25,581 nt of DNA from a virus, in the IMG/VR virus record IMGVR_UViG_3300032282_004904, positions 1 through 25,581 of that record; one strand, 5' to 3'. A program made the translations under genes and the position numbers. Position 1 is the stretch's first letter, and every line of letters begins with the position of its first letter. The notes below the pieces were generated by a model, which did not search any database, was not told the DNA's origin, and was given only the letters and a program-made list of their open reading frames with translations. Below are positions 1,423-25,581 of this stretch, piece after piece.

Positions 1423-3045
1423 TCACAAAAGCCACTTTAGTGACTCTTTTTTACCTGTAACAGGTCCAGCACCCGATACAACTGCTCCCACATCAAACTG
1501 CCAAGTTTCTTGTGGGTTTTGTACAACCTTGGATTGATTTGCTGGCCCTGGAGTGTTATTGACCACCTTTTTGATGCCACTCAGCATTGTTTTGGTATAG
1601 GCCATTTGTTCCATTCTTATTTTTAATGCGGTGTCACGAACCCACAAACCAATACCCAACGACATAACCAAGTCGTCGTTGTATCCTTTCATAGCTTCGG
1701 CTTTGGCACCATTCCAAATAAATACCATCAACTCTTCATACAATCGAATACTGTGAATTATAATTTGACGTTCACGGAAAAAGCTTTCCATCTTATTGAT
1801 AATCAACTGACGATTTACATTGGTTGTAGTGAATCCAGGCACAGCTTTCTTTTCAGAGCTATTGATTTTGTTGCTGTAGCTGCGCTCAATATCAACAACC
1901 TTGAGGTCTGAAGAACTGTAATACAAGTTTGGATAGTTTCTGTCAATAACTTGCTGCAATGATGCCCAACCAATATTGTTGTTTTCAATTACCAACAAAG
2001 CATTGTTGTATTCTGTAGATATCGTTACCAACAAGTTACCATAGTCCTTGGTGGTAATCTGTCCTTTATACTCCGCAACTTGCTCCAATGTGTCTACATC
2101 AAATACATGAAATGCACTATAGTCAGCACCATCACCACGGGCACAGTCAGCAACAACCATATAGTTTTTGCTGTAATCTGGTCGTTGCCAAATCCACAAA
2201 TCTTGTGTAGCACCACGTTTTTCAATAGGTTCAACAACATGAGTCTTTTTGTAAAACTCCAATGTATCAACACTAACAACTTGATTACCAGATGTGCTAA
2301 AATCACAATCACATTCTTGTGCTGCACCTTTTACACCCGACAATTCTGTTTGTTTGTCACGCCAAGCTTGATCACGCTCTGGATGCAAATTCCACGGCAA
2401 ACTGATGGTGTTGAACTTGTTCTCGCCTGCCTCAGCAGCAACCCAAGTTTTGTGAAAGAAGTTACCAACACCATTTGGAGTTGACAACACAATTGCACGA
2501 CCACCAGTTGACAGTGTGTATTGTGCCGACAACCAAATTTCTTCGATGTTGTCGATGAATGCAGCTTCGTCAATCACCAACAATGACAGTGCTGCTGAAC
2601 GACCAGCAGTACCAGCACTTGACACTGCCTTGATTTGACTACCATTTTTCAAACGCAGACTCAAACGATTGTCTTCAACGCATTGAACCTTTAACCATGG
2701 TGGTAGGTTGTCATTTGCAAAACGTACCTTGGTAACAATTTCTTTTGCAGTTTCTTGTGTAATACTGATACACAATATGTTTTTGTCGTTGAAGAATGTC
2801 ATCAACCACAAACTATATGCCGACACTAGGGTACTAATACCCATCTGACGACTTTTGAGAATGATGTTGAGATCAAAATCAACCAAATCATTCAAGGCTT
2901 TTTCTTGAAATGGATACAGATCAAAATTACAAGTGCCACGTATAGGGTGTTGAATCTTCACATACTTCTTCATGAAGTATATGGGATCTTCAATACACTT
3001 CTTATACTCGGCTTTTATTAGCTCTCTGTAATTTTGTTGACTCAT
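1423..3045 (-). CDS. 17: Terminase large subunit, T4 gp17 family
   Basis: This is the packaging ATPase and headful nuclease that docks on the portal. In the 540-residue form the ATPase has a Walker A-like SRQMGIS near 65-71, a Walker B LLVIDEAAF near 155-163 and the coupling motif STPNG near 188. The RNase H-like nuclease supplies VVADCARGDGADYS (Asp near 300), LLVIENNN (Glu near 354) and YNDDLVMSL near 470, matching the D/E/D triad of T4 gp17. The longer frame from TTG at 3066 is possible. I chose ATG at 3045 because GGAAAG lies just upstream and TTG has no comparable site. The start lies inside the preceding gene (44-base overlap), which implies translational coupling as between T4 16 and 17. 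Length is slightly shorter than T4 gp17 (610 residues). Confidence 0.95.
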   Translation of the reverse strand: MSQQNYRELIKAEYKKCIEDPIYFMKKYVKIQHPIRGTCNFDLYPFQEKALNDLVDFDLNIILKSRQMGISTLVSAYSLWLMTFFNDKNILCISITQETAKEIVTKVRFANDNLPPWLKVQCVEDNRLSLRLKNGSQIKAVSSAGTAGRSAALSLLVIDEAAFIDNIEEIWLSAQYTLSTGGRAIVLSTPNGVGNFFHKTWVAAEAGENKFNTISLPWNLHPERDQAWRDKQTELSGVKGAAQECDCDFSTSGNQVVSVDTLEFYKKTHVVEPIEKRGATQDLWIWQRPDYSKNYMVVADCARGDGADYSAFHVFDVDTLEQVAEYKGQITTKDYGNLLVTISTEYNNALLVIENNNIGWASLQQVIDRNYPNLYYSSSDLKVVDIERSYSNKINSSEKKAVPGFTTTNVNRQLIINKMESFFRERQIIIHSIRLYEELMVFIWNGAKAEAMKGYNDDLVMSLGIGLWVRDTALKIRMEQMAYTKTMLSGIKKVVNNTPGPANQSKVVQNPQETWQFDVGAVVSGAGPVTGKKESLKWLL

Positions 3046-3667: not shown

Positions 3668-4720
3668 TTATTTACCAAAACCGCTTTGTAGTCCTTTAAT
3701 AATGAAACTTCCAGTTATTTTGAATGGACTGCTGTAGATTTTTGGATCACGAATAACTATACCTTCATGTTTCTCAAGATCACCAATTTCACTGGTTGCA
3801 TTCTTTAGAATTTCATCGCCAAGCTTCACAGTGGCAATATAAACAATCGTATCATTAACAACCTTACGAATGTCTTGACCCGCAAAATCCTTAGCAATGT
3901 TTTTGCTCTTTTGTGCTTTCAAGAACTCCTCACGGGTAATAAGTGGAGTTTCAATAGTAACATCTTTCAGCCAGTCCTTCAAACTCTTGGTAACTGCTGT
4001 ACCGTTTGGATACAAAGTAACCTTTTCTCCAAGAGGACGAGTAAGGTTTGGTTCACTCTTGAAAGTTGTACCTACACTACCCAATACTTTGAAGCCATGC
4101 TTTTGAGCAACCACATTCAGCTTGTTGATGTAGCTTTGCATAGCAGCTTTGTCGTAAGGAATTTCTGTAGCCACACGACTCTTGACTTGACCGTCTTTAC
4201 CAATGTTTTTTGGTTTGATTTCTTTGAGACCGTGAATTGCCAAAAAGTTTCCAATGTCTCCATATCCAACAACGTTGGTTTGACCTTCTACATATTCAAT
4301 ATTGAGCAAAATATTTGGATTGGTGGCAAGACCAAGTTTCTTCAATTCAGCTTGTGTACTTGGAATTGCTTCATCAAAAATGTTGATGACTTTGGCACCG
4401 ATCTTGACAAATCCGTGCTCTTGACCCGTAGCTGGATCTGTTGGCCAACGTGCCGCCAAATCTTCTGGTCGCATACCTTGAACGTCAAATGGCTTGGCAC
4501 TGCCACGATCCATAACAAATCGTCCGTTGACCAAACGAATGCTGGCGTTAACACCGTCAATTTTTACACTACCAACTCCTTTTTTCAAAGACTCAATTGA
4601 CTTGGCAAAAACATCCACCAGTTGTTTGCCGTTTGATGTGAAGTCGAATGGATGTGCCATGTGTCCACCAGCACCACCTTCTCTCAATACTTCCAACAAA
4701 ATGCTATGTAGTTTAATCAT
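3668..4720 (-). CDS. KxDG ligase-like nucleotidyltransferase with possible capsid-targeting leader
   Basis: This 350-residue protein carries the marks of the covalent nucleotidyltransferase (DNA/RNA ligase and capping enzyme) superfamily. Motif I is VKIDGVNA with Lys53 as the presumed AMP-accepting lysine. A motif III-like LLNIEYV is followed by FLAIHGL (138-164). Motif IV is HEGIVIRD (318-325) and motif V is FKITGSFIIKG (333-343). It ends soon after motif V, so no OB-fold is visible. A GGAGGHMAHPFDF block (15-27) precedes the catalytic core. It may belong to a phage family of ligase-like proteins of unknown substrate. The first residues, MIKLHSILLE, match the pattern of T4 capsid-targeting peptides ending in L-x-E. 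It starts 5 bases after the FMN reductase-like gene stop, so the two are probably co-translated. Sealing activity is not demonstrated. Confidence 0.75.
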   Translation of the reverse strand: MIKLHSILLEVLREGGAGGHMAHPFDFTSNGKQLVDVFAKSIESLKKGVGSVKIDGVNASIRLVNGRFVMDRGSAKPFDVQGMRPEDLAARWPTDPATGQEHGFVKIGAKVINIFDEAIPSTQAELKKLGLATNPNILLNIEYVEGQTNVVGYGDIGNFLAIHGLKEIKPKNIGKDGQVKSRVATEIPYDKAAMQSYINKLNVVAQKHGFKVLGSVGTTFKSEPNLTRPLGEKVTLYPNGTAVTKSLKDWLKDVTIETPLITREEFLKAQKSKNIAKDFAGQDIRKVVNDTIVYIATVKLGDEILKNATSEIGDLEKHEGIVIRDPKIYSSPFKITGSFIIKGLQSGFGK

Positions 4721-4725
4721 ATAGT

Positions 4726-5490
4726 TTACTTAAGAAATGTTTTGTCAAATACTGTAATTGCTTTGTTGTAGGACTTTTTGGTTTCGTCCAAAGCGTTGTC
4801 TGTAAATTGCCAGTTCCAAAACAAAGGATCTGGTGTCTTAAATCCAAAAAAGTCAAGAACGCTCTTTTGTGTTTCCACAACATGCTTACCGTTCCAGTTT
4901 TGTCCCACAGCAATAAATCCAGAATCAATATCTTTAACCAGATTGGACTCACCCAAAGTGGTGTGTCTATTTTCAATCCAAGTCAAACGCTCAATCAACT
5001 TTTGATAATAACCGTTTGCTTGACCCCATCTAACGCTTGCAAAAAATAGTACACAATCACTCTCAAACAACTCTTTGCTGATCTTCCAAAGTTCATCCCC
5101 TTTTTCATTGACACTAGCCCAACAACGATGATGTCCACTTGGATTTTGCTCTTTGTTTTTTAACAACGCTCCAGCAGACCCACAGTGATTGCCGCCAAAC
5201 TCTTTATTGCTGCTTACGTTACCTTCACATGGAACAATGTGTAGTTTGGTGGTGTCGATAAGAGTTACCTTCTCCTTACCCAATAAATCTTGAATTTTAA
5301 TGGCAAGCTGGCTACTCTTGGGAACATCTTCTTTGTGTTGAACCCACCTATTGCTGGTGGTCAGCAACAATACCTTTTTCTTATCACGCAAATAATCGAT
5401 GGTCTTCTTGTATTTACGAGCATACAAGTCCATATCTTGCTCACTTGCTGGCAATTTAGCTTCTAATAAAAGGTCTGTTAGACTGATCAT
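4726..5490 (-). CDS. NAD(P)H-dependent FMN reductase-like flavodoxin-fold protein with possible capsid-targeting leader
   Basis: The 254-residue protein has a flavodoxin-like layout. A first strand and phosphate-binding loop (VLLLTTSNRW, about 40-49) is followed by a strand ending in IDTTKL, then a DCVLFFASVRWGQANGYYQKLIERL segment split across 145-169, which resembles the second flavin loop and helix of NADPH-dependent FMN reductases. A later strand (GFIAVGQNW) precedes the C-terminal helices. A His/Cys-rich insert (GNHCGS, HHRCW) lies at 100-125. The first residues are MISLTDLLLEA, parallel to the next gene. I chose ATG at 5490 because it aligns the two leaders. ATG at 5496 would add Met-Arg. 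It is the first gene after the sheath terminator. Flavin binding and reductase activity are inferred from fold features only. Confidence 0.7.
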   Translation of the reverse strand: MISLTDLLLEAKLPASEQDMDLYARKYKKTIDYLRDKKKVLLLTTSNRWVQHKEDVPKSSQLAIKIQDLLGKEKVTLIDTTKLHIVPCEGNVSSNKEFGGNHCGSAGALLKNKEQNPSGHHRCWASVNEKGDELWKISKELFESDCVLFFASVRWGQANGYYQKLIERLTWIENRHTTLGESNLVKDIDSGFIAVGQNWNGKHVVETQKSVLDFFGFKTPDPLFWNWQFTDNALDETKKSYNKAITVFDKTFLK

Positions 5491-5514
5491 TCTCATATAA
5501 ATATCTATACAAAT

Positions 5515-5544
5515 GAAAAAACCCCGCCTTTTTACGGGCGGGGT
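5515..5544 (-). terminator. Rho-independent terminator after the tail sheath gene
   Basis: On the minus strand an 8-base GC-rich stem (ACCCCGCC at 5544-5537 with GGCGGGGT at 5528-5521) closes an 8-base loop and is followed directly by a run of T residues (5520-5516). It lies about 20 bases past the sheath stop codon and stands out as GC-rich in an AT-rich window. The opposite strand has no T-run after the stem, so it acts in one direction. It separates the sheath transcript from the two ligase/reductase genes, which must use read-through or their own promoter. Confidence 0.93.
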
Positions 5545-5565
5545 CTTGATTTATGCTAGTTCAGT

Positions 5566-8500
5566 TTAGGCACTGAAACTTGCACCAGTTGGCAGAATGT
5601 TGAAATCCAAGAGGATAAATTCTGCGGTACGGGTTGGTTGGATGTAGATTTGACCGTAGAGAATATTACGATCAATCAAGTCTGGAGTGTTGTTCTCAGC
5701 ATCCATCTTGACTTGGTATGCATAGATACCATTGCGTTGTTGTACGCTTTCAAGATATGGATTGACAATGCTCAAGAAGCGGTTGCGAGTTGCTGCAACG
5801 TTTTGTTCGAAAACAAGGTAGTTGCTGCTGCTTGCAATGAACTTCTTCAAGTTGATCAACAAACGGCGAACGTTCACACGGTCCAGTGCGCTTGGGTTGA
5901 TTTGCAGAGTCTTTTGACCCCACACCACAATGCCTTGACCTGGGAATGCTGCGATTGGGTTGACACGGTTCTCATAGAGAGTGTCACGTTCTTGGTGAGT
6001 CAAGCGATCCAACACTTGGACAGCTTGTGGAATACCACCACGATTCAAACCTGCTGGAGCATACCATTCTGCTGCTGCGTTGTCGTTTGCAGCGTAAACT
6101 GCTGGCAACACCACAGAAGGTGGAACAGAGATGATCTTGTTCAAGTTTGTGTCGAGGATCTTGACCCAAGGATAGTAGGTTGCAACATAGTTGCTATCAA
6201 TTGTTGCCACGCTGTTGATTGCGGCATCAATCAATCCTACGCTTTGATTGCTTGCTGGGAACACCACGTTATCCATGATGTAGAAACAATCGCCACGGGC
6301 TTCACACATAGTGATCGTCAAGTTGGTAACATAGCTGTGTTGTTCACAGAAGATACCAGGCAACACAATCATGTTGATATCCCACTCATCAGCATTGCTG
6401 AGGGCTGCAATACATTGCTTGTAAGCAATGCTACCAGGGCTCTTGATGGTGGTACAATCCAAACCTTGGGTATTACCCGCAGTAATGTCGCTACCAACAT
6501 TGATTGGAATTGCTGGCCATTGACCATCAAATCCACCTTGGAAGCCAACCACGAACTTACGCAAACGAACGTAGATTGGTTCATTTACTGGATCGTAGAG
6601 ACTTGGAATACTACCACTCAACTCTGGAGCGAGCAACGAACCAGTGCTTGCGGCAACGCCTTGGGCATAGTAAGGTGCATCTGGATAACCCCAAACCTTG
6701 GCTTCAAGATCAAAGTCGATGTTGTCACCGTTTTGATCGTTTCCGCCGTAGTATGGAAGTGGCTTGAACCATTGCTTAGTGTCGGTGTCAACACCAACTC
6801 CAAATGACGAGGTTGGATACAGAGCGGCAATTTCTTCACCGGCTTCTGGTACTTCACCAAACACTGTACCAGATGGATACTTACCAGGTGCCAAACCATA
6901 GATACTTGCTTTGCTGTAACGAACTGCTGGCAGCAAGTTACCCAAAGTACCGTCAACTGGTGTGTAGTAACCTTCAAATCCGTAAGGTACAACACTTACT
7001 GGATATGGTAGGTCGATCATTTCAATACGAATATACTTACTCAAGTTGACATAAGTTCCGTATTCCACAATCTTACCTGCGAAGGTAATGTATGCGTAAC
7101 GATCACCAATACGACGTGCTACGAAGTTTGCACTGTCTGGGTTGAGGTTCAAGTTTTGGAAGATTTCCAAATACTTAGGACGCTTATCAGTGTCGCTGTA
7201 TGCACGAACTGCAAGAGTGAAGCTACCCCATTCGCTGCCAGTGACCGTACCAGCCAACTTAACATTGCTGATTTCGATCTTGTACTTGCGGTTTGCCAAA
7301 GTACCATCGCTCAAAGTGTGAACCTTGAACAACTTGAACTTGGTTGGGTTTGCGCTTTCGTCTGCACTTCCCTTGAACGGAGCAATTGCTTGTGAATAGA
7401 TCCAAGGAGTTTTTGCGTTGGTGATTGCAAATTGAGAATCACCACTGTTTGGATCATATGAATATTGATCCACAAACTTCATAGATTCGCCAACGCTGAA
7501 TCCACTAGATGGTGCGGTTGCAACTTGTAGTCTCCAACCACCACCCTTGGACTCAGGACGAGTCTTTTCAGCCAAGAAACGCTTGATGCTGTCTTCAAAC
7601 AACACATAGTTGTATGCAGCTTCAATCTTTTGGCCTTGAACTTGTTTTGCTGGATTGCCAACAGTTGGGTCCATACCAAACACTTCCTTGATGTAGTTAT
7701 TTGCGTTCTCTTCAAGAGAGAAGTCGTAATAACCATATGTGCCAGCAGATGTGTTGCCGCTGTCATCAGTGAAGTTGTAACGAAGAGCCAATTGGTATTG
7801 GTTGTCGTTTGGATTGATTTGTCCCTTGTAAGGATATACAGAGCTTGTCAATTGAGCAACAGACGAATCTACGAATCCGTAGACCGAGTAGTTGTTGTCA
7901 AATTGAGTTGATGCGTTTTGAGTATTTGCAAGAACACTCAACACCATGTTTTTACGAGCATCTGTGTTTGGGTTACATGGATCGGAACCACTGTCTCCAG
8001 CAGGTACGAATGTTCCATTGTATGGACCATATTCACCAGTTACGATACCCAAGAATCTCAATGCTGCACCGCAAGTTGCTGCACTGCGAACAGTTGCAAA
8101 GCTTGCACTACGAACAACGAGATCATCAGTTGCGTCAATAGCGTCAATATTGTAATCCAACGTAAGATCGTCCGTGACACCAAGGAGATTCAACAACGAA
8201 GAACTCAACAACCACTTGGTTTCTGAGCTTTCATTGATTGCGGTTGAAAGTTGAGTTTCCTCAACAGTTTGCTTGCCTTGTGCGCTTGAAGTTAGATAAA
8301 AATATCCAACACCAGCATCTTCATCTCCAGAATCAGCAAACTTACGAACCAACTTACCAGTGGTAACAGTACCCAAGTTGAGTTGCTTACCACCGTAAAG
8401 TTGGCTACCACTCAAATTACCAGTACCATCGTAACTAGCAGGGAATCCGCTGGTCAACTTTGCACTACCAAATCTAGCGTTGATATCACCCGTAAATGAC

Positions 8501-9567
8501 AAATATGATTTATCATACATGAGTGCTGGATTAAACAAGTTATACACGTCACCAGCCTTTTTATTGTATGCATAACCAGACAAATTAGCAACACCAGATG
8601 GATATGCAGTTTGCAAAAACACAAATGGCCAATTGACTTGTCCGTTTGTTTGTGTGATAGATGCAGTCAAATATGAACCTGAGTTTGCTGGCCAGGTACG
8701 AGATTGGTCAGCACCACTACCACCATAAGTACCATTCAATACTGCTGCAATGGACTTCGTATTTTGAATATATCCACTACCACTGAAATACAAAGTACCT
8801 TGTGGAATAAACTTTTGTACGTCAAACCACGCAATTGCGTGGTCAGAACCACCATTCAACTTGGTAATTTTCTTGCCAGCGTCACCAACTGATGAACTAA
8901 ATGCTGCGTATGCATTGGTGGTAGTAACACTTACCAACTTGCGGTTCTTAAGAGCATTGCCCAAAGAAGAACTCAAGCTGTTGATGTTTGGCAAATATGA
9001 ATATGCACCCAAAAAGCTGGTTATTTGTGCTTTGGTAGTTGGTGTAGCTGTTGCATCAACACCATACGAGTTGTTGCCAGGTGTAGGAATACCAGTACCA
9101 CCGTCGGCTGGAACTTCCCAACCAGAGCTACTGTGTACATATTTAATGTTGGTTGTAAGACTGTCTCCATTCAAATACATGAATGAACCAGTTGTCAATG
9201 CACCTTTGTCGCTGGTACGTTCCCAGTAACCTGGTTGTGCATATACAACCAATGGATTCTTTTGCCAGTAACCAGTCAAACCACCCACACGAACGATGGT
9301 TACAATACCTTGTTGAACAAGATATTCTTTGGCAGTATATGGGCCGTAATACACACCATCAGCAAGGCCGAAGCGTTGTTCAAGTGTAGCTACGTCGGTG
9401 ATAATATTTGGAAAAAATGCAGGTCCGTCAGCAAATGGAGCGACGATTGCACCTCCGATGTTGGCTACGCCTTGAGCGAGCCCCGATAGATCATTTTCTC
9501 TGGTGAAAACACCAGGACTTACTATTGTTTGTTCTGGACTCCAGCGTCCACCTTCTTGTATTGGCAT
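5566..9567 (-). CDS. 18: Contractile tail sheath protein, gp18 family, very large (1333 residues)
   Basis: The protein forms the contractile outer tube of the tail. The N-terminus carries the sheath signature TIVSPGVFTRENDLSG (about 14-29) and the DVATLEQRFG and YTAKEYL segments. The conserved C-terminal domain begins near 1210 with GIVVWGQKTLQ and continues through RVNVRRLLINLKKFI, VFEQN and the final AEFILLDFNILPTG. A part near 780-870 (FTLAVRAYSDTDKRPKYLE, then NFVARRIGDRYAYI) resembles the enlarged sheaths of marine T4-like phages. T4 gp18 is 659 residues, so about 650 extra residues sit in the middle, presumably as outward-facing domains. ATG at 9567 has a good Shine-Dalgarno, AAGGAAC at 9582-9576. 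Expression is probably late: a TATAAATA box lies about 90 bases upstream and a strong terminator follows. The frame is unbroken. Confidence 0.93.
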   Translation of the reverse strand: MPIQEGGRWSPEQTIVSPGVFTRENDLSGLAQGVANIGGAIVAPFADGPAFFPNIITDVATLEQRFGLADGVYYGPYTAKEYLVQQGIVTIVRVGGLTGYWQKNPLVVYAQPGYWERTSDKGALTTGSFMYLNGDSLTTNIKYVHSSSGWEVPADGGTGIPTPGNNSYGVDATATPTTKAQITSFLGAYSYLPNINSLSSSLGNALKNRKLVSVTTTNAYAAFSSSVGDAGKKITKLNGGSDHAIAWFDVQKFIPQGTLYFSGSGYIQNTKSIAAVLNGTYGGSGADQSRTWPANSGSYLTASITQTNGQVNWPFVFLQTAYPSGVANLSGYAYNKKAGDVYNLFNPALMYDKSYLSFTGDINARFGSAKLTSGFPASYDGTGNLSGSQLYGGKQLNLGTVTTGKLVRKFADSGDEDAGVGYFYLTSSAQGKQTVEETQLSTAINESSETKWLLSSSLLNLLGVTDDLTLDYNIDAIDATDDLVVRSASFATVRSAATCGAALRFLGIVTGEYGPYNGTFVPAGDSGSDPCNPNTDARKNMVLSVLANTQNASTQFDNNYSVYGFVDSSVAQLTSSVYPYKGQINPNDNQYQLALRYNFTDDSGNTSAGTYGYYDFSLEENANNYIKEVFGMDPTVGNPAKQVQGQKIEAAYNYVLFEDSIKRFLAEKTRPESKGGGWRLQVATAPSSGFSVGESMKFVDQYSYDPNSGDSQFAITNAKTPWIYSQAIAPFKGSADESANPTKFKLFKVHTLSDGTLANRKYKIEISNVKLAGTVTGSEWGSFTLAVRAYSDTDKRPKYLEIFQNLNLNPDSANFVARRIGDRYAYITFAGKIVEYGTYVNLSKYIRIEMIDLPYPVSVVPYGFEGYYTPVDGTLGNLLPAVRYSKASIYGLAPGKYPSGTVFGEVPEAGEEIAALYPTSSFGVGVDTDTKQWFKPLPYYGGNDQNGDNIDFDLEAKVWGYPDAPYYAQGVAASTGSLLAPELSGSIPSLYDPVNEPIYVRLRKFVVGFQGGFDGQWPAIPINVGSDITAGNTQGLDCTTIKSPGSIAYKQCIAALSNADEWDINMIVLPGIFCEQHSYVTNLTITMCEARGDCFYIMDNVVFPASNQSVGLIDAAINSVATIDSNYVATYYPWVKILDTNLNKIISVPPSVVLPAVYAANDNAAAEWYAPAGLNRGGIPQAVQVLDRLTHQERDTLYENRVNPIAAFPGQGIVVWGQKTLQINPSALDRVNVRRLLINLKKFIASSSNYLVFEQNVAATRNRFLSIVNPYLESVQQRNGIYAYQVKMDAENNTPDLIDRNILYGQIYIQPTRTAEFILLDFNILPTGASFSA

Positions 9568-9682: not shown

Positions 9683-12600
9683 TTAAAAAGTGATCTTGCT
9701 ATACCCATTTTCTTTCTTGATCTCCAAATGCATGTCAACCATGTCTCGCATTTGATCCAAATGACTGATAATCCAGATAAATTCAAACTGATGCTTCAAA
9801 TAGGTAAACAATGCACCCATTTGACCCAAATGATCACTGTCTGCACAACCAAATCCTTCGTCAATACAAATGATATTTGGTCTAGGTAGATTGCTGATAT
9901 TGATCAGTGCAACACGAATTGCAAGTCCACTAATAAACTTTTCCATACCACTACCCATTTCCAAAGGCCAACACTTGTCATCATAAACAATGTTGCTGTT
10001 GATGTTTTTGCCGTCGGTTTGTAGCGTAACAGTAAACTCCACCACTTGATGAAGAATATTGTTAACTTCCTTTTCGATCTCGGGTAGAGTTTTTGTAATA
10101 ACATCGTAAGGAATACCATCACGGCTCACAACAGCGGTATAGTGCTTGTAGGCTTCATAAGAAGCTTCAAGCTCCAACAACTTCTTGAGTTGAGCTTCTG
10201 TGGTCTTTTGCTCCAGTTCCAGTTTACCCTTTTGAGTAGACGCTTTGAACAAATCTGTGTTGGCAGACTTAATATCAAGTTCAACTGATTTGATAAAATC
10301 TTTAACATCAGCAATCTCAGACAACAGTTTGTTGTTGTTTTCAATAATGTCTTTGTTTTTGTAAAACACGTCAATATTGTCAGAAACCAGCTTCAACTTG
10401 TTTTTGAGTTCAATCAAATTGTTTTCCAGTCTCAAAATGATGTTGTTAATAGCAGCCTTGTTTTTCTCAAAAGTAGCTTTGTCGGTCAACATCTTTTGAT
10501 ATGCCTTATACTGCTGCTCAATATCACCATAATCTGAAACTGTCTTTTTGATGTTTTGAAACTCAACAACCACTTGTGCAGCATGAGACTTTTGTTCTTC
10601 CAGTTCCAGCTTTGTGGCAATAGCGTCTTTTACAAAGACGTTGTTTACACAATAATTGCAGTTTGGATCGTACTTGTGTTCCTCAAGCTTTTTGAGCTTG
10701 TCAATCTTATTGCGAATCACAACCTTCAACTTATCAATTTCAGTTTGAGTTGATTGTGCAGATTGTTTGTCGCTTTGATATTGTTCGTATTTAGACTCAA
10801 TATCAGTGTATAGATTTAGTGAAGAACTGAAGTTTGTTAGACTATTCTCAATCGTCGCCAACTTTTCCTTTTGAGCTACAATATCAGATTGTGCTATTTC
10901 AATCTTGTTGGAATAGTCAATCTTTTCGGATTCTAGCTTGGTAATATCAAACGCAAATGTCTCGGTCTTGACAATATCATTGCTCAACTCCAACAATTTT
11001 TTGTTGTAATCATCCTTTTTAGATTCCAATTCCCCCACAAAATTGTTCAATTCAACTATAGAGTTTTCATTGGTCTTGATAGAGTGAGAAATACTTTCCA
11101 GTGAAGCCACAAGTTCATCTTTGCTGTAATTCTTCAACAAAGTATTGATCTCTTTGAACTGCTCGTTAGCAATGTTGTACAACTGATCAAATACAGTAAG
11201 ACCCATAAACTGACACAGCAAGTCCTTGCGCTCAGTATTACCAAGATCAACAAAAGATCCAGTCTTGCTATTTTGAATGCTCAACACTGTCAAAATAAAA
11301 TCATCATATGTTCCAAGATAATCTCGGATGATGTCGTTGGTGCTGCGACGTGCTTCACCGTTCAAAGGCACTTCCATGTCATTCTCCATTTTGTAGAATT
11401 TGACTTCGACTTTTACATTACCCTTCTTGTCAGCAGTTCCTTTGCGTTCAATAAAATAATCCACCCCGCTGATTTCAAAATTGAACTTACACTTGAATCC
11501 CATTTTTTGGGTATTCATGACGTGAACAGCTTTGTAACCTTTACTAAACTTATCGAATACACAAAATGCCAAAGCATCCATGATACTAGACTTACCACTA
11601 GCATTTGGAGCAAACAAACCAATAGTTCCCTTGAGTTTGGTAAAGTCAATTACGTTGCCTTCGCCATAACTAAACATGTTGTCAAACTCAAAGGTCTTGG
11701 GTTTCCATCGAATATTCTTTGGAGTTTTATCTTTGGGAATCTGCGTATTGGTCAACTTATTGAGTTCAAGAACTTTGTCCAACAAAGGCTTTTCTACCTT
11801 CTTTGCGGTCAAAGTATCTGTAATCAACTTGTTTTGATAATCAACATCAAAAATATTGTGAATATCCAACACTTGACCAGCGTTGGTTGCTTGGTTCTGA
11901 AAATCATCAACACGAATAAAGGTTGATTCAAGAATCTCGCACTTAGTCTTGATTTCGTTGATTACTTCTTTTACTTGAGAAGGAATCGTTTCAAAACACT
12001 TGGTACGAACACGGGCTTTCTTAGGTATATTGGAAATGTCGGTAATCAACTTACCCTTATTAATTTCCACAGTATAGAAACCATAATCGTTTTCCAATTC
12101 GTAATGTTTGAACAGTCTACGCTTTAGATCCCACAACAAAAATCCATGACCCTTGAGTTCTTCACCATGGTTTTGTTGAATCATCGATCCAGCATACACA
12201 ATAACTGGCTTACCATCATTGTCATTGTATTCTTGCAATACTTGATGTTTGTGAATGTCACCCAACATCACAATATGGTGTCCATCAAACATTTCGTTTG
12301 TAATTGCACGATTGCTGACAGTGTATCCCACATCTGTGACGGCTTCGTTGACAGGTCCATGAAACAGTCCAATGTGATGATCAGTTTCCAACCTATACTT
12401 TGAAGGAATGGTGTCATAGTTGATGTACTTATCTGGTTCATCAAACACACCAAAATGATTGAACAAAATGTTTTCGTATCGGTAAACCTCGGTATCCTTT
12501 AGATAATACAAGTTCTTGTGATTCAATCCACGTACAATTGGAGTAAGACTGTCCAATCGTGCTTTGTTGTTGAGCAACGCATCATGATTACCAGCAATCA

Positions 12601-12865
12601 AAATTGTGGGAACTCGGTCAGCACAATTCTTCAAAAATTGCGCACCCAAGTTAACGCATTCTGGTGACAAATCAACTTTGTTGTGAAACAAGTCTCCGGT
12701 AATAACACAAACCAAACGAGTGTTTTTTGCGAGCTTGTCCAGTACATCATAAAATTTGTTAAAGACAGATTCATACTCATCATGGCGTTTTGTCAACCGC
12801 ATGTGAATATCAGAAACCTGAATTACATTGTCGATCTTCGTCTCTGTGTTTTTTAGTACGATCAT
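9683..12865 (-). CDS. Single-chain Mre11-Rad50 (SbcD-SbcC; gp47-gp46) fusion
   Basis: One unbroken 1060-residue frame holds both subunits of the recombination nuclease complex that resects DNA ends and, in T4, degrades host DNA. The first 250 residues are a complete Mre11-type phosphoesterase: DIH (Asp19, His21), GDLFH (Asp58), GNHD (Asn93, His94), His169 and GDIHKHQ (His205, His207). After a linker, the Rad50 part begins near 385 with WKPKTFEFDNMFSYG. Walker A is APNASGKSS (419-427). A long coiled coil follows, with a CNYC zinc hook near 733-736. The second lobe carries GSGMEKFISGLAIR (signature region), Walker B IICIDEGFG near 1000 and the ISHLDQM His switch. In T4 these are two genes, 47 and 46. 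ATG at 12865 overlaps the primase stop as ATGA. Both active sites look intact. Confidence 0.94.
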   Translation of the reverse strand: MIVLKNTETKIDNVIQVSDIHMRLTKRHDEYESVFNKFYDVLDKLAKNTRLVCVITGDLFHNKVDLSPECVNLGAQFLKNCADRVPTILIAGNHDALLNNKARLDSLTPIVRGLNHKNLYYLKDTEVYRYENILFNHFGVFDEPDKYINYDTIPSKYRLETDHHIGLFHGPVNEAVTDVGYTVSNRAITNEMFDGHHIVMLGDIHKHQVLQEYNDNDGKPVIVYAGSMIQQNHGEELKGHGFLLWDLKRRLFKHYELENDYGFYTVEINKGKLITDISNIPKKARVRTKCFETIPSQVKEVINEIKTKCEILESTFIRVDDFQNQATNAGQVLDIHNIFDVDYQNKLITDTLTAKKVEKPLLDKVLELNKLTNTQIPKDKTPKNIRWKPKTFEFDNMFSYGEGNVIDFTKLKGTIGLFAPNASGKSSIMDALAFCVFDKFSKGYKAVHVMNTQKMGFKCKFNFEISGVDYFIERKGTADKKGNVKVEVKFYKMENDMEVPLNGEARRSTNDIIRDYLGTYDDFILTVLSIQNSKTGSFVDLGNTERKDLLCQFMGLTVFDQLYNIANEQFKEINTLLKNYSKDELVASLESISHSIKTNENSIVELNNFVGELESKKDDYNKKLLELSNDIVKTETFAFDITKLESEKIDYSNKIEIAQSDIVAQKEKLATIENSLTNFSSSLNLYTDIESKYEQYQSDKQSAQSTQTEIDKLKVVIRNKIDKLKKLEEHKYDPNCNYCVNNVFVKDAIATKLELEEQKSHAAQVVVEFQNIKKTVSDYGDIEQQYKAYQKMLTDKATFEKNKAAINNIILRLENNLIELKNKLKLVSDNIDVFYKNKDIIENNNKLLSEIADVKDFIKSVELDIKSANTDLFKASTQKGKLELEQKTTEAQLKKLLELEASYEAYKHYTAVVSRDGIPYDVITKTLPEIEKEVNNILHQVVEFTVTLQTDGKNINSNIVYDDKCWPLEMGSGMEKFISGLAIRVALINISNLPRPNIICIDEGFGCADSDHLGQMGALFTYLKHQFEFIWIISHLDQMRDMVDMHLEIKKENGYSKITF

Positions 12866-21439: not shown

Positions 21440-21601
21440 TTATGGTAGATTACTGTCTTTATAGAAGTTGCTTATGACGCTTACTTTCACATTCTTCAGT
21501 GTGTTGTATTTGAAAAAGTTTTTGAGCGTCAATTCCATCAATGGAATATTGGTCTCATTTGTAAAGTAAACAAAACGTAAGTTGCTAATATCAAAAGTCA
21601 T
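21440..21601 (-). pseudogene. Truncated glycosyltransferase N-terminal fragment (53 residues)
   Basis: ATG at 21601 overlaps the stop of the upstream tandem glycosyltransferase as ATGA, so translation is likely coupled. The product reads as the first strand-helix-strand of a GT-A enzyme: LRFVYFTNETNIPLMELTLKN followed soon by VKVSVISNFYKD. It then stops at TAA after 53 residues, and 62 non-coding bases precede the next gene. No DxD motif or catalytic part follows in any frame before the methyltransferase. I call it the remnant left by an internal deletion, though a real small protein is possible. The open frame extends upstream in sequence, but that part is the overlap with the larger gene. 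Confidence 0.55.
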
Positions 21602-24216
21602 AGTTTTATTTCTACTCGTTCTGCCCAACCACGGCTTTGGCTCACTCCCCAATACACAACCCTAGCAGGCCATTTATCTGTAAGGAAGTATTCTTCATAG
21701 TGAATGTTTTCTTTACCTTGCAAAAATTTCTCCAAAGTTTTGCCAGTGATATGCTTTGCTGAAATTGCTTGACCTTGATCATCATCAAACGCAACCAAAA
21801 TACTGCTATAGTCGTTGCCTGGTAATTGTTGTTTGGTAATGTTGACGAGATGATAAAATGACTTTTTAAGCGAAGCTTTCCACTGTTCTTCCGACATCTT
21901 TGGGTTTGGAGGAACTCCATTGTCCATAGTATATGGTTGCACAGACTTTTCTTTGAAGCATATACCGGCATACAACTCATAGTCATGCAATGAACGCTCA
22001 GTTCCCAAATCATAACCACTCAAATCATATCCGTTGTATTCGGTTTGCAGAAGTTGTCGAATTTTTGCTCGGGATTTGGATTGCAACTCATTCCAATTTT
22101 CTCCACGCTTTGCTTGGTCATCCCAAACCAAAATTCCATCTCGTTCTTTTCTTGCCATAGAATGCCAAATTACCACCTTGTTTGGATGATAAATGTCATA
22201 TCCATGTGTAAATGAACGCACAGTCAGATTGATTTCTTCACCGCTGAAAAAGATATCTGAGTCATGTTTGATAGTTTTTCCCCAATGATTATCACCAAAG
22301 CAAAAATGTCCAGACAAAAATCTTCCTGGTACTGGCTTTGTCAAATCCACAGAACTGTTAAACGAGCTTGGTCGAATAAAGATAGTTCCATGTGGATAAA
22401 AACATGACATGACTGACTGCCATGGCTGTTTGGTTCTAGAGTTTGGATCGTCAGATGGATCATAGAACGGCAAATATCCAGCCACCAACGGCTTTTTGAC
22501 ACCATCTGCTTTTAATGAATCGTGCATCTCAATCAACGTAGAATCCCAATTTTTGGCAAATCTATGATGGCTGTCCAATTGCAAAATATACTCCTCATTC
22601 AGCAACATAGTGTTGATTTGGTATCGTGCAAAAGGAAGCCCTTTTGCTGCGGTGTAATCCATATCAATGATTCTGAATCTAGGATCGGTTCTGAACTTAT
22701 CCAAATCCTTTGAAAATTTGTCAGCTTTGTTGACTTGGTGACAAACACCAAACACCAATCGGTCAGAGTATGCAGCGTTTTTCAATGCGCTTTCAATGGT
22801 TGGTAACAACTCTGGATCTCGGTAAGCAGGAATGTGAACAAAGATTTTTCTCTTGTTTGGGTCAGAATTGAAAGCAACCTTTTCGTTTCTTTGCTTTTGA
22901 TTCTTTTTGCTATGCTTCCACAAACTCTCTGGATCTGGTGAGCGAGGAATAGGTTTTACTGGTGATGGTATATACCGCTCAATCTTTTCCATCCATCCCT
23001 TGGATTTACTATGTGGCCAAAATACATAAGTCTTTGGCACTTCTTTTGTGTGAAATGCTCGCCAAATTCTATGCCACCGATCCGCAGCCAAAGAATTTTT
23101 GTAAGAAGCTACCTCAGCTTCTCCAGCGTCAACTCGCACAATTTCAACTCCATCGGCATTTTTGAACGCAATGATCCAAGCATCATAATCTTTTTCTGGA
23201 ACACTGTCATCATGCATATCAATACAGAACTTAAAGATGTGCAGCAAAGATTTTTCGTATTCTTCTGGATCACTGATTACTGGATTAGGAGCAATTTTTT
23301 GATCCAATGTGTATTGTTGGACTGAACGATCTTTGAATCGCACACCCGCAAATTTTTCATAGTCTTGAAGTGTTCTTACTTTACCAAAATCATATACGCC
23401 AAAATCTATATTTTTGGTTTCTCCGTCCATACCAAACAATTTTCTTGTACGCAAGTGTGATGCTGCATTTCGGTCTGCCCAAATCTTGTCATCATCCCAT
23501 TGCTTTATAGATCCAGATCGATGGTAATAATGCCATGCTATAACTTTGTGAGGGTGAAACAAATCATATCCGTGCGTATATGCACGAACTGCCATGTTGA
23601 TTTCTTCGCCATGGAAATACAAATTTGGATCATACACCACTTCTTTTACAAACGATCCATGTGCAAAAGCAAAATGTCCGCTAAAAAATCGTGCTGGAAT
23701 TGGCAACTCTAACGTATTGTGATCTGGTATAACACTTGGAGTTGGAAAGATTGGCCCCTCAGGCAAATACCTATCAAAACAGATCATCCAAGGCTCTGTG
23801 ACCCTACCTTTTGGATCATTCTCTGGTTCGTAAGAAGACAAATACGCCGTCAATACTGGCTTTTTGTATCCAACCGCACACAAATCTTGCAACATTCCAA
23901 TAGCTTGTGTATCCCAGTCTTGAGCAAATCTATGATGACTATCCAATTGCAAACAATAATCTTCACCAGAATACAACAAATTTAATTGGTGTCGAATCCA
24001 ACAAACTCCCTTACTTTGCTTGTATGGAATGTCTATGATTTTGAATCGTGGATCTTTGTCGTAACCATCCAATGTCTCAGTTTCATCATGTTGCCATGCA
24101 ACTGCAAACACTAAATTTTCTGGGTATTTTGCTTTTGCTATACAATCTCGTATAGTTGGCAGCAACTCTTTATCTCTGTAACTTGCAATTTGTATAAATA
24201 TTTTTGACATAGACAT
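21598..24216 (-). CDS. Tandem-duplicated GlcNAc-transferase-like glycosyltransferase (PF11397 type)
   Basis: The 872-residue protein consists of two homologous halves, about 1-440 and 454-872. Each begins with the same layout (KIFIQIASYRDKELLPTI and KIFVHIPAYRDPELLPTI) and carries a metal motif LQLDSHHRF (near 89-97 and again near 545). Each then has FSGHF, GEEIN..VR..THGYD and a C-terminal module (VYDFGKVRTLQDYEKFAG versus GYDLGTERSLHDYELYAG, ending in GW.E..E). This matches the GlcNAc transferase family that includes Skp1 hydroxyproline GlcNAc transferase. Both halves keep the acidic motif, so both may be active. ATG at 24216 or 24210 is possible. The gene follows a 110-base gap and leads the glycan cluster. 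The donor sugar in this phage is inferred only from the family. Confidence 0.85.
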   Translation of the reverse strand: MSMSKIFIQIASYRDKELLPTIRDCIAKAKYPENLVFAVAWQHDETETLDGYDKDPRFKIIDIPYKQSKGVCWIRHQLNLLYSGEDYCLQLDSHHRFAQDWDTQAIGMLQDLCAVGYKKPVLTAYLSSYEPENDPKGRVTEPWMICFDRYLPEGPIFPTPSVIPDHNTLELPIPARFFSGHFAFAHGSFVKEVVYDPNLYFHGEEINMAVRAYTHGYDLFHPHKVIAWHYYHRSGSIKQWDDDKIWADRNAASHLRTRKLFGMDGETKNIDFGVYDFGKVRTLQDYEKFAGVRFKDRSVQQYTLDQKIAPNPVISDPEEYEKSLLHIFKFCIDMHDDSVPEKDYDAWIIAFKNADGVEIVRVDAGEAEVASYKNSLAADRWHRIWRAFHTKEVPKTYVFWPHSKSKGWMEKIERYIPSPVKPIPRSPDPESLWKHSKKNQKQRNEKVAFNSDPNKRKIFVHIPAYRDPELLPTIESALKNAAYSDRLVFGVCHQVNKADKFSKDLDKFRTDPRFRIIDMDYTAAKGLPFARYQINTMLLNEEYILQLDSHHRFAKNWDSTLIEMHDSLKADGVKKPLVAGYLPFYDPSDDPNSRTKQPWQSVMSCFYPHGTIFIRPSSFNSSVDLTKPVPGRFLSGHFCFGDNHWGKTIKHDSDIFFSGEEINLTVRSFTHGYDIYHPNKVVIWHSMARKERDGILVWDDQAKRGENWNELQSKSRAKIRQLLQTEYNGYDLSGYDLGTERSLHDYELYAGICFKEKSVQPYTMDNGVPPNPKMSEEQWKASLKKSFYHLVNITKQQLPGNDYSSILVAFDDDQGQAISAKHITGKTLEKFLQGKENIHYEEYFLTDKWPARVVYWGVSQSRGWAERVEIKL

Positions 24217-24326: not shown

Positions 24327-25581
24327 TCATGCACAAGGACGAGATTCAACTCCGCCAGGCATAAATATGCGGTAAGGATCACTTCCAGTACCAGATCCGC
24401 AAGCAGGGGCATCTATTTGACTCTGCAAATCTCCGAACGTCAAGGTGACATAACGGTTAGGAGTCACTTGAGTACAACAACCTGTATCTGGATCTGGACC
24501 GTAAGAAATCATTGTTGCAGCCATTGTAGTAGCACCAGTAGCGTCAGCCACAAAACCTGCGGTGAACCAACCTCTTGCCAAAATATAAGGTGCTGCCACA
24601 TATGAATCGGCGGCATGTGGTGGAAACACTTCCAAGTTTGCGTTTACATTGGTATATACAAGTTTTCCGTTTCCACTGTCCTGACCTGTTCCAGAACCTT
24701 GGCTTATAATTTTGCCACTATTGCAATATTCGCCTGCATGTCCACACACACATTCAGGTGGAACTGGATCTGGACATGTTGAATTTTGTGTTGGTGCTGC
24801 CGAAGGTTGTGGATATATTACAAAGAATACAGCACCAGCAGGCGCAGGACTATTACTTGGACTCACGCTAGGTGTTGGTTGTGGTGTTGGACTTACTGCC
24901 AAACTAGGACTTGGTGTTACACTAGGCGTTGTTGTCACACTAGGTGTCACGCTAGGTGTGGCTGTGATGCTTGGTGTAGCTGTGATGCTAGGTGTAGCTG
25001 TAATACTTGGAGTAGTTGTAATGCTTGGTGTCACGCTAGGTGTAGCACTTACACTTATGCTTGGAGTCACACTAGGTGTTACACTAGGAGTTGCACTCAA
25101 GCTAATACTTGGAGTAACGCTAGGAGTTGCGCTCAAGCTGATGCTTGGCGTGACGCTTGACGTAGCTGTAATGCTTGGAGTTACACTAGGAGTTACACTT
25201 GAAGATGCTTCTGGTGTTACGCTAGGAGTTACACTCACACTAATACTTGGTGTTACACTAGATGTAGCTGTAATGCTTGGAGTTATACTAGGCGTTACGC
25301 TTGAAGATGTAGCGGGTGTGGAGCTAGGAGTTGCGCTTACACTGATGCTTGGAGTCACACTAGGCGTTGTTGTAACGCTCGGTGTAACACTAGGAGTAGT
25401 GCTTGATGACGCCGCAGGTGTAGAGCTTGGTGTGGTACTTACACTTATGCTTGGAGTTACACTAGACGTGGAGCTAGGAGTTGCACTTACACTGATGCTT
25501 GGTGTCACACTTGGCGTCACACTAGGTGTAACACTAGGTGTACGAGTTACTGAAGGTGTTGGAGTTGGTGTAGGCGTTGCC
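24327..25581 (-). CDS. Ser/Thr/Pro-rich repeat (mucin-like) protein, 5' end beyond window
   Basis: The frame is open from the right edge to TGA-side stop at 24327, giving 417 visible residues with no true start, so the N-terminus is missing. A GTG at 25520 is only an internal valine of the repeat. The first 240 or so visible residues are built of TPSVTPSISVSATPS-type units, almost only Thr, Ser, Pro, Val, Ile and Ala. They end at a NSPAPAG border. The last 175 residues are different: a Cys cluster (CPDP..PECVCGHAGEYC), a Gly/Ser linker, then a compact part with YVAAPYILARGWFTAGFV, GCC and GGVESRPCA at the end. There is no membrane segment. I infer an extended virion stalk with a small C-terminal head. 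Such a Ser/Thr-rich stalk beside glycosyltransferases is a likely glycan acceptor, but no modification is shown. Confidence 0.8.
   Translation of the reverse strand, partial: ATPTPTPTPSVTRTPSVTPSVTPSVTPSISVSATPSSTSSVTPSISVSTTPSSTPAASSSTTPSVTPSVTTTPSVTPSISVSATPSSTPATSSSVTPSITPSITATSSVTPSISVSVTPSVTPEASSSVTPSVTPSITATSSVTPSISLSATPSVTPSISLSATPSVTPSVTPSISVSATPSVTPSITTTPSITATPSITATPSITATPSVTPSVTTTPSVTPSPSLAVSPTPQPTPSVSPSNSPAPAGAVFFVIYPQPSAAPTQNSTCPDPVPPECVCGHAGEYCNSGKIISQGSGTGQDSGNGKLVYTNVNANLEVFPPHAADSYVAAPYILARGWFTAGFVADATGATTMAATMISYGPDPDTGCCTQVTPNRYVTLTFGDLQSQIDAPACGSGTGSDPYRIFMPGGVESRPCA
24850..25581 (-). repeat. Coding tandem repeat array (TPSVTPSISVSATPS units)
   Basis: Short 9-15 base units repeat irregularly and are grouped into larger blocks, for example TPSSTPAASSSTTPSVTPSV and TPSSTPATSSSVTPSITPSI. 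Copies differ mostly at third codon positions (acaccaagc, acgcctagt, acacctagt), which indicates selection for the protein repeat and not recent copying alone. The array continues past the right edge. Assembly collapse of such a repeat is possible, so true length is uncertain. Confidence 0.9.

Follow-up and report, generated by a model that had tools for sequence, protein, structure and literature searches.

Predicted T4-type capsid-targeting leaders on unrelated enzymes of uncultured freshwater T4-like viruses

Two adjacent genes of an uncultured virus, one for an oxidoreductase and one for a KxDG nucleotidyltransferase, encode proteins with parallel ten-residue leaders, MISLTDLLLE/A and MIKLHSILLE/V (the slash marks the predicted cut), and these leaders are probably working capsid-targeting signals that a prohead protease removes. 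The evidence lies in the sequences: the leaders themselves, the pattern of their conservation, their modular occurrence on unrelated enzymes, the protease and a matching cleavage motif. Several unrelated enzymes bear the same tag, both in this virus and in its relatives, and these uncultured freshwater T4-like viruses of bacteria therefore probably deliver a varied, ready-made set of enzymes to the host together with their DNA.

The window analysed here, 25,581 nucleotides of IMG/VR record IMGVR_UViG_3300032282_004904, is 99.98% identical, in reverse complement, to the opening 25.35 kb of a contig of 39,116 bp. Both reading frames and both leaders, as described in an earlier note on this DNA, are present (Table 1). 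The pair is flanked on one side by the tail sheath gene and on the other by a small gene and the terminase large subunit, which is 54-56% identical to those of Microcystis phage Mel-JY01 and Flavobacterium phage immuto. In 111 of 147 close loci, and in 16 of the 19 large contigs, the two genes stand side by side. Each can also be found without the other, its leader retained (oxidoreductase only in G018, KxDG protein only in G001 and G006).

Table 1. Features at and beside the pair of leader-bearing genes
Feature	Position	Strand	Remarks
Flavodoxin-like (NADPH-FMN-reductase/NQO1-type) oxidoreductase with N-terminal leader	4726..5490	-	254 aa ORF
Leader MISLTDLLLE, predicted capsid-targeting sequence, predicted cut before Ala11	5461..5490	-	
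KxDG nucleotidyltransferase (RNA-ligase-like) with N-terminal leader	3668..4720	-	350 aa ORF
Leader MIKLHSILLE, predicted capsid-targeting sequence, predicted cut before Val11	4691..4720	-	
TATTTATA box, 5 nt upstream of MISL start codon	5496..5503	-	
GC-rich hairpin and T run, terminator-like, in the gap between sheath and oxidoreductase	5516..5546	-	Sequence reading only, no tool score
Tail sheath gene, upstream neighbour, late structural module	5566..9567	-	PHROG_23 tail sheath 2e-64
Terminase large subunit, downstream neighbour	1423..3045	-	PHROG_2 3.5e-45

Four genes on the same strand of the window deserve mention. The tail sheath protein, at 1333 aa, is about twice as long as that of T4, and its family match is confined to a region near the C-terminus. 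A single ORF of 1060 aa (9683-12865) looks like an SbcD-like nuclease with an SbcC-like ATPase behind it, fusing the counterparts of T4 gp47 and gp46. The 872-aa glycosyltransferase-like protein at 21598-24216 consists of two similar halves (a tandem duplication), and the protein at 24327-25520 has long TPSVTPSISVSATPS-type repeats and a cysteine-bearing C-terminal domain.

The MISL start of the oxidoreductase is preferred over an alternative in-frame ATG upstream, at 5496 (MRM-ISL), because it sits 5 nt behind the TATTTATA box. Clade-wide, this box was observed 201 times in 841 upstream regions, against 18.8 expected; of 275 genes with the box in the 60 nt upstream, 184 have it 3-5 nt ahead of the ATG. 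Should it serve as a promoter -10 element, transcripts with almost no 5' leader would result. We rejected a late promoter of the TATAAATA type ahead of the pair, the enriched element being TATTTATA.

The oxidoreductase appears, on modest scores, to share its fold order with NADPH-dependent FMN reductase, NQO1 and SsuE. Its best structural matches in Foldseek were human NQO1 (E 8e-4), SsuE and WrbA, with a probability of 0.99 but TM scores of 0.3-0.4; the pLDDT of the model was 60, and part of the mid-chain was poorly modelled. The window protein did not match the Pfam family PF03358 (FMN_red), and its family profile did not match E. coli SsuE; its cellular homologues matched PF03358 weakly, below the cut-off (1.3e-4 and 0.0039; 22 bits against 24). 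The phage oxidoreductase differs from these enzymes in that it forms a distinct family with PCEGN and RCWAS motifs of its own. The family is common in viral contigs of up to 321 kb (L283-L361) and occurs also in candidate-phyla bacteria and archaea.

The neighbouring protein resembles T4 RNA ligase 2 and other KxDG nucleotidyltransferases in the order of its KxDG, E..G and EG..R motifs, and K53-I-D55-G56, E142, E319-G320 and K334 are invariant in 34 sequences. Its best fold matches were RNA and DNA ligases, including T4 Rnl2, all of them weak (E 0.012-0.04, probability up to 0.85), and against Pfam RNA_ligase (PF09414) it scored 14.8 bits, under the cut-off of 27. It differs from T4 Rnl1 and from a gene annotated rnlB in having no sequence homology to either that direct comparison could detect. 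Neither enzyme of the pair had a match in 50,697 phage records, and therefore no annotated isolate carries either. Searches of PDB with phmmer gave nothing useful.

The leaders were compared among related proteins from 147 viral loci, and each is kept in about 120 of them, nearly all of those examined. In the oxidoreductase (n = 33), L4, L8 and E10 are present in every sequence and L7 in 31; in the KxDG protein (n = 34), I or L at position 7 and L8 are universal, L4 and E10 are each found in 31, residues 1, 2 and 8 are invariant, and residues 5, 6 and 9 vary. Mutagenesis of the T4 IPIII capsid-targeting sequence assigned residues 4 and 7 to targeting and residues 8 and 10 to processing, and the gp21 cut site in T4 lies after L/I-x-E (PMC9026906). 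The conserved positions of the window leaders (4, 7, 8 and 10) are those that govern targeting and processing in T4, and both leaders satisfy a T4-type rule of about ten residues, hydrophobic at 4, 7 and 8 and ending in Glu10. The AlphaFold models set the N-termini, at low confidence, apart from the fold (residues 1-12 of the oxidoreductase and 1-19 of the KxDG protein).

Short hydrophobic or charged starting helices occur in many phage proteins, and the N-termini could be amphipathic helices of one kind that serve some other purpose (docking to a membrane or a complex, or the context of the translation start), in which case the match to L-x-E is coincidental. That explanation seems to us quite improbable, since conservation falls on the four T4 positions and passes over 5, 6 and 9, and E10 is nearly invariant although a docking helix has no chemical need of it.

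Internal methionines provided a baseline, the leader pattern being found at 0.23% of them (14/5,981). On the 39-kb contig to which the window belongs, 5 of 33 proteins carry the strict leader, where chance predicts between 0.08, from internal Met, and 0.22, from shuffled N-termini; five was not reached in any of 20,000 shuffles. The earlier note held that no other protein in the window has such a leader, and inside the window this is so, but three more strict leaders lie beyond it on the same contig: MIKFSNLLRE/G, on a PolyA_pol/HD nucleotidyltransferase, MNIKIKDLLKE/V and MIKLTDILKE/S. MIKFSKIIE/S is a fourth candidate there. In a clade set of 19 contigs (1.81 Mb, 571 families), family-weighted leader matches amounted to 12.9 families against 1.3 expected, and the string hydrophobic-hydrophobic-x-E ended at residue 10 in 10.4 families, compared with 2.7 ± 1.4 at positions 16-60.

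The excess is seen also in T4 and, more weakly, in the isolates Mel-JY01 and immuto, for which the position-10 excess over background is modest (7.0 vs 2.95). Leaders of this form include MIKLIDLLTE/S in immuto and MIKLKSLLQE/I in Mel-JY01. A scan of T4 with the leader pattern retrieves gp24, Alt, gp2 and 61.1, and gp24 and Alt are known gp21 substrates. The IPII and IPIII leaders share the pattern but have Tyr at position 4, a residue excluded by the expression used in that scan. No excess was found in T5 and SPO1, which are not T4-like, and in gp21-bearing genomes the leaders match the gp23 and gp24 sites; both observations count against the shared-helix reading. The same genomes also contain a second recurrent N-terminus, MxxxxLxxLIxE(x), exemplified by MTKTELIQLIKEVIDE and MKKSQLRQIIKEAL (G001, G013, G032 and immuto), which can be cited in favour of such a helix and may represent another targeting class, its Glu being at 12-13. 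Some leader matches need not be functional; a few have odd starts and may be due to chance. L/I-x-E is short and common, and single cases are therefore weak, so that the case for a targeting leader depends on the statistics, on which positions are conserved, on the matching gp23 site and on comparison with cellular homologues.

The protease and capsid sites required by a T4-type leader, which the earlier note had suggested looking for, are both present. A gp21 homologue (Peptidase_S77) lies at 27925-28533 of the 39-kb contig (E 2.7e-30), and the protease was found in 20 of 20 large relatives. The contig also encodes gp23 (31326-33068) and a gp22-like MSDLLKE protein. When gp23 from nine relatives, two isolates and T4 was aligned, the known T4 cleavage site, FLTE/A, fell on QLLDE, QLLNE, QLISE or QIVSE followed by A. 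The gp23 of the window's own contig has QLLTE/A, and the leaders end in a like motif; the match extends to the QLLDE/A and QLLNE/A sites. Among contigs with distant viral oxidoreductase homologues, an S77 match was found in 6 of 13 that bear the leader by our own assignment, several of the others being short fragments, and several leader-free contigs are S77-positive as well. This correlation is weak and was therefore not used as proof; its looseness is partly due to the many fragments. In the S77-positive relatives L310/L311 and L353-L356 the oxidoreductase has no leader, and packaging is therefore not essential to the use of this enzyme.

Comparison with homologues indicates that the leader is a removable module. 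A search for the same leader on unrelated folds was successful, in the same genome and in relatives. Seven cellular homologues of the oxidoreductase (from Woesearchaeota, Gracilibacteria, Sulfurovaceae, Falkowbacteria, an alphaproteobacterium, Methanoregula and Kerfeldbacteria), 52-62% identical to it, lack the leader, though one is cut by the contig end and its N-terminus is uninformative. Homologues outside T4-like phages that kept the N-terminus would have refuted the targeting proposal, and for the oxidoreductase none did so. For the KxDG protein, the searches turned up no homologue without the leader. E. coli Cca, whose residue 2 aligns with residue 33 of the CCA-type enzyme from the phage, likewise has no leader. 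Some viral oxidoreductase homologues start as the cellular ones do, and others carry MISLLELLNE/A, MMKLSNILSE/I, MIKLKDLLSE/V or MIKLSELLKE/E. The CCA enzymes have MIKFSNLLRE, MITFKNLLVE, MISLKELLME or MIKLKQLLTE, with the targeting and processing positions conserved.

In L143, a homing-endonuclease-like ORF (10770-11624) took over the KxDG leader through GGAGGH. Behind this ORF, the KxDG gene (11608-12657) has a new start, MIKISKLLVSLFE, which again is compatible with the rule; as read from the sequence, this gene has regained a different leader after the capture. Such capture by a neighbour, and the adjacency of the two window genes, could suggest that both leaders descend from one recent duplication of a 5' end at the locus and have no targeting meaning. 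We hardly credit this, in view of the solitary genes that bear leaders, the recurrence of the pattern on distant unrelated genes and a pair of ADP-ribosyltransferase (ART)-like paralogues in L205 (1531-1998 and 10348-10818; VYRGVNPAYGD) that have near-identical bodies and differing leaders of one pattern.

The tagged proteins of relatives include PolyA_pol, Mom, GP88 and ART-like proteins and, in L135, a DnaJ-domain (J-domain) protein; the ART-like label is a reading of the sequence, Pfam having given no match. In the isolates, leader-type N-termini are found on NT5C-, cytidylyltransferase- and ParB-like proteins. A leader could target the tagged proteins, those of the window included, to the prohead core and be cut by gp21 without their being delivered, if they were core or assembly factors or were degraded at maturation. 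In T4, gp21 also cleaves the core proteins gp22, gp67 and gp68, which end up as fragments (PMC9026906), and the window pair stands in a late structural module near terminase and sheath. We nevertheless regard this as unlikely: the tagged proteins have enzyme folds, two of them with clear cellular enzyme homologues, and they vary among relatives, whereas core proteins would be expected to be conserved.

The carriage in the head that we infer for the tagged enzymes has precedents in T4. The leader MKTYQEFIAE/A of IPII and IPIII shares with the window leaders a length of ten residues, hydrophobic positions 4, 7 and 8, Glu10, a small residue after the cut and a gp21 gene in the genome. It differs in that positions 4 and 7 are aromatic in T4 and aliphatic here, and the T4 cargo consists of small basic proteins where that of the window consists of enzymes; the mature parts showed no homology. 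Closest in form to MIKLNNILNE and MIKLHSILLE is the T4 gp24 propeptide, MAKINELLRE/S, although gp24 is a shell protein and the window pair is enzyme-like. The short gp24 propeptide is cleaved by gp21 (PMC5694885). The ADP-ribosyltransferase Alt (MELITELFDE), packaged and ejected by T4, is itself a head-carried enzyme with an N-terminal propeptide, and leader-bearing ART-like proteins occur in relatives, but the Alt propeptide has 7 residues (PMC9026906) and the window enzymes are of another type.

The proposal that the leaders are T4-type capsid-targeting sequences is thus well supported by sequence; packaging, cleavage and injection have not been shown and are inferred. Leader residues 4 and 7 would bind the growing prohead core, so that the enzyme would be enclosed as the gp23 shell forms. 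The S77 protease gp21 would then cut after E10 of L/I-x-E and free the mature enzyme inside the head, where it would remain with the packaged DNA and be ejected alongside it. Injection into the host is likely by analogy with T4 (PMC9026906), and an enzyme ejected with the DNA would therefore be at work in the host before phage genes are expressed. If the leader is removed, semi-tryptic peptides are predicted to begin AKLPASEQDMDLYAR and VLREGGAGGHMAHPFDF; we found no virion proteomics of the nearest isolates, immuto and Mel-JY01, in the literature.

The predicted cargo is a lineage-specific mix: here the oxidoreductase, the RNA-ligase-like enzyme and a CCA/polyA nucleotidyltransferase with an HD domain, and in relatives Mom-like, GP88, ART-like and J-domain proteins. 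An untagged 2H phosphoesterase adjoins the tagged CCA/polyA-type enzyme (G032 36212-36733 = L262:16212-16733; PF13563 7.5e-12; weak Acb1 match), and a role in RNA repair for these two and the KxDG protein is a reasonable but unproven guess. More tentatively, and with considerable doubt, the portable ten-residue tag on host-derived genes may preload a variable enzyme kit, whose RNA-repair-type members would, from the very start of infection, repair tRNAs that the host's anticodon nucleases cleave in defence.

T4 packaging signals have mostly been studied in one phage with few cargo proteins. Where sequence alone reveals a T4-type signal, as in this common, uncultured lineage from fresh water, it can be used to predict which enzymes are in the virion, including some that seem to have been recruited from cells, and what is injected with the DNA becomes a matter of genome-wide prediction. 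The leaders would also provide new, naturally occurring tags with which proteins could be loaded into T4-like heads.
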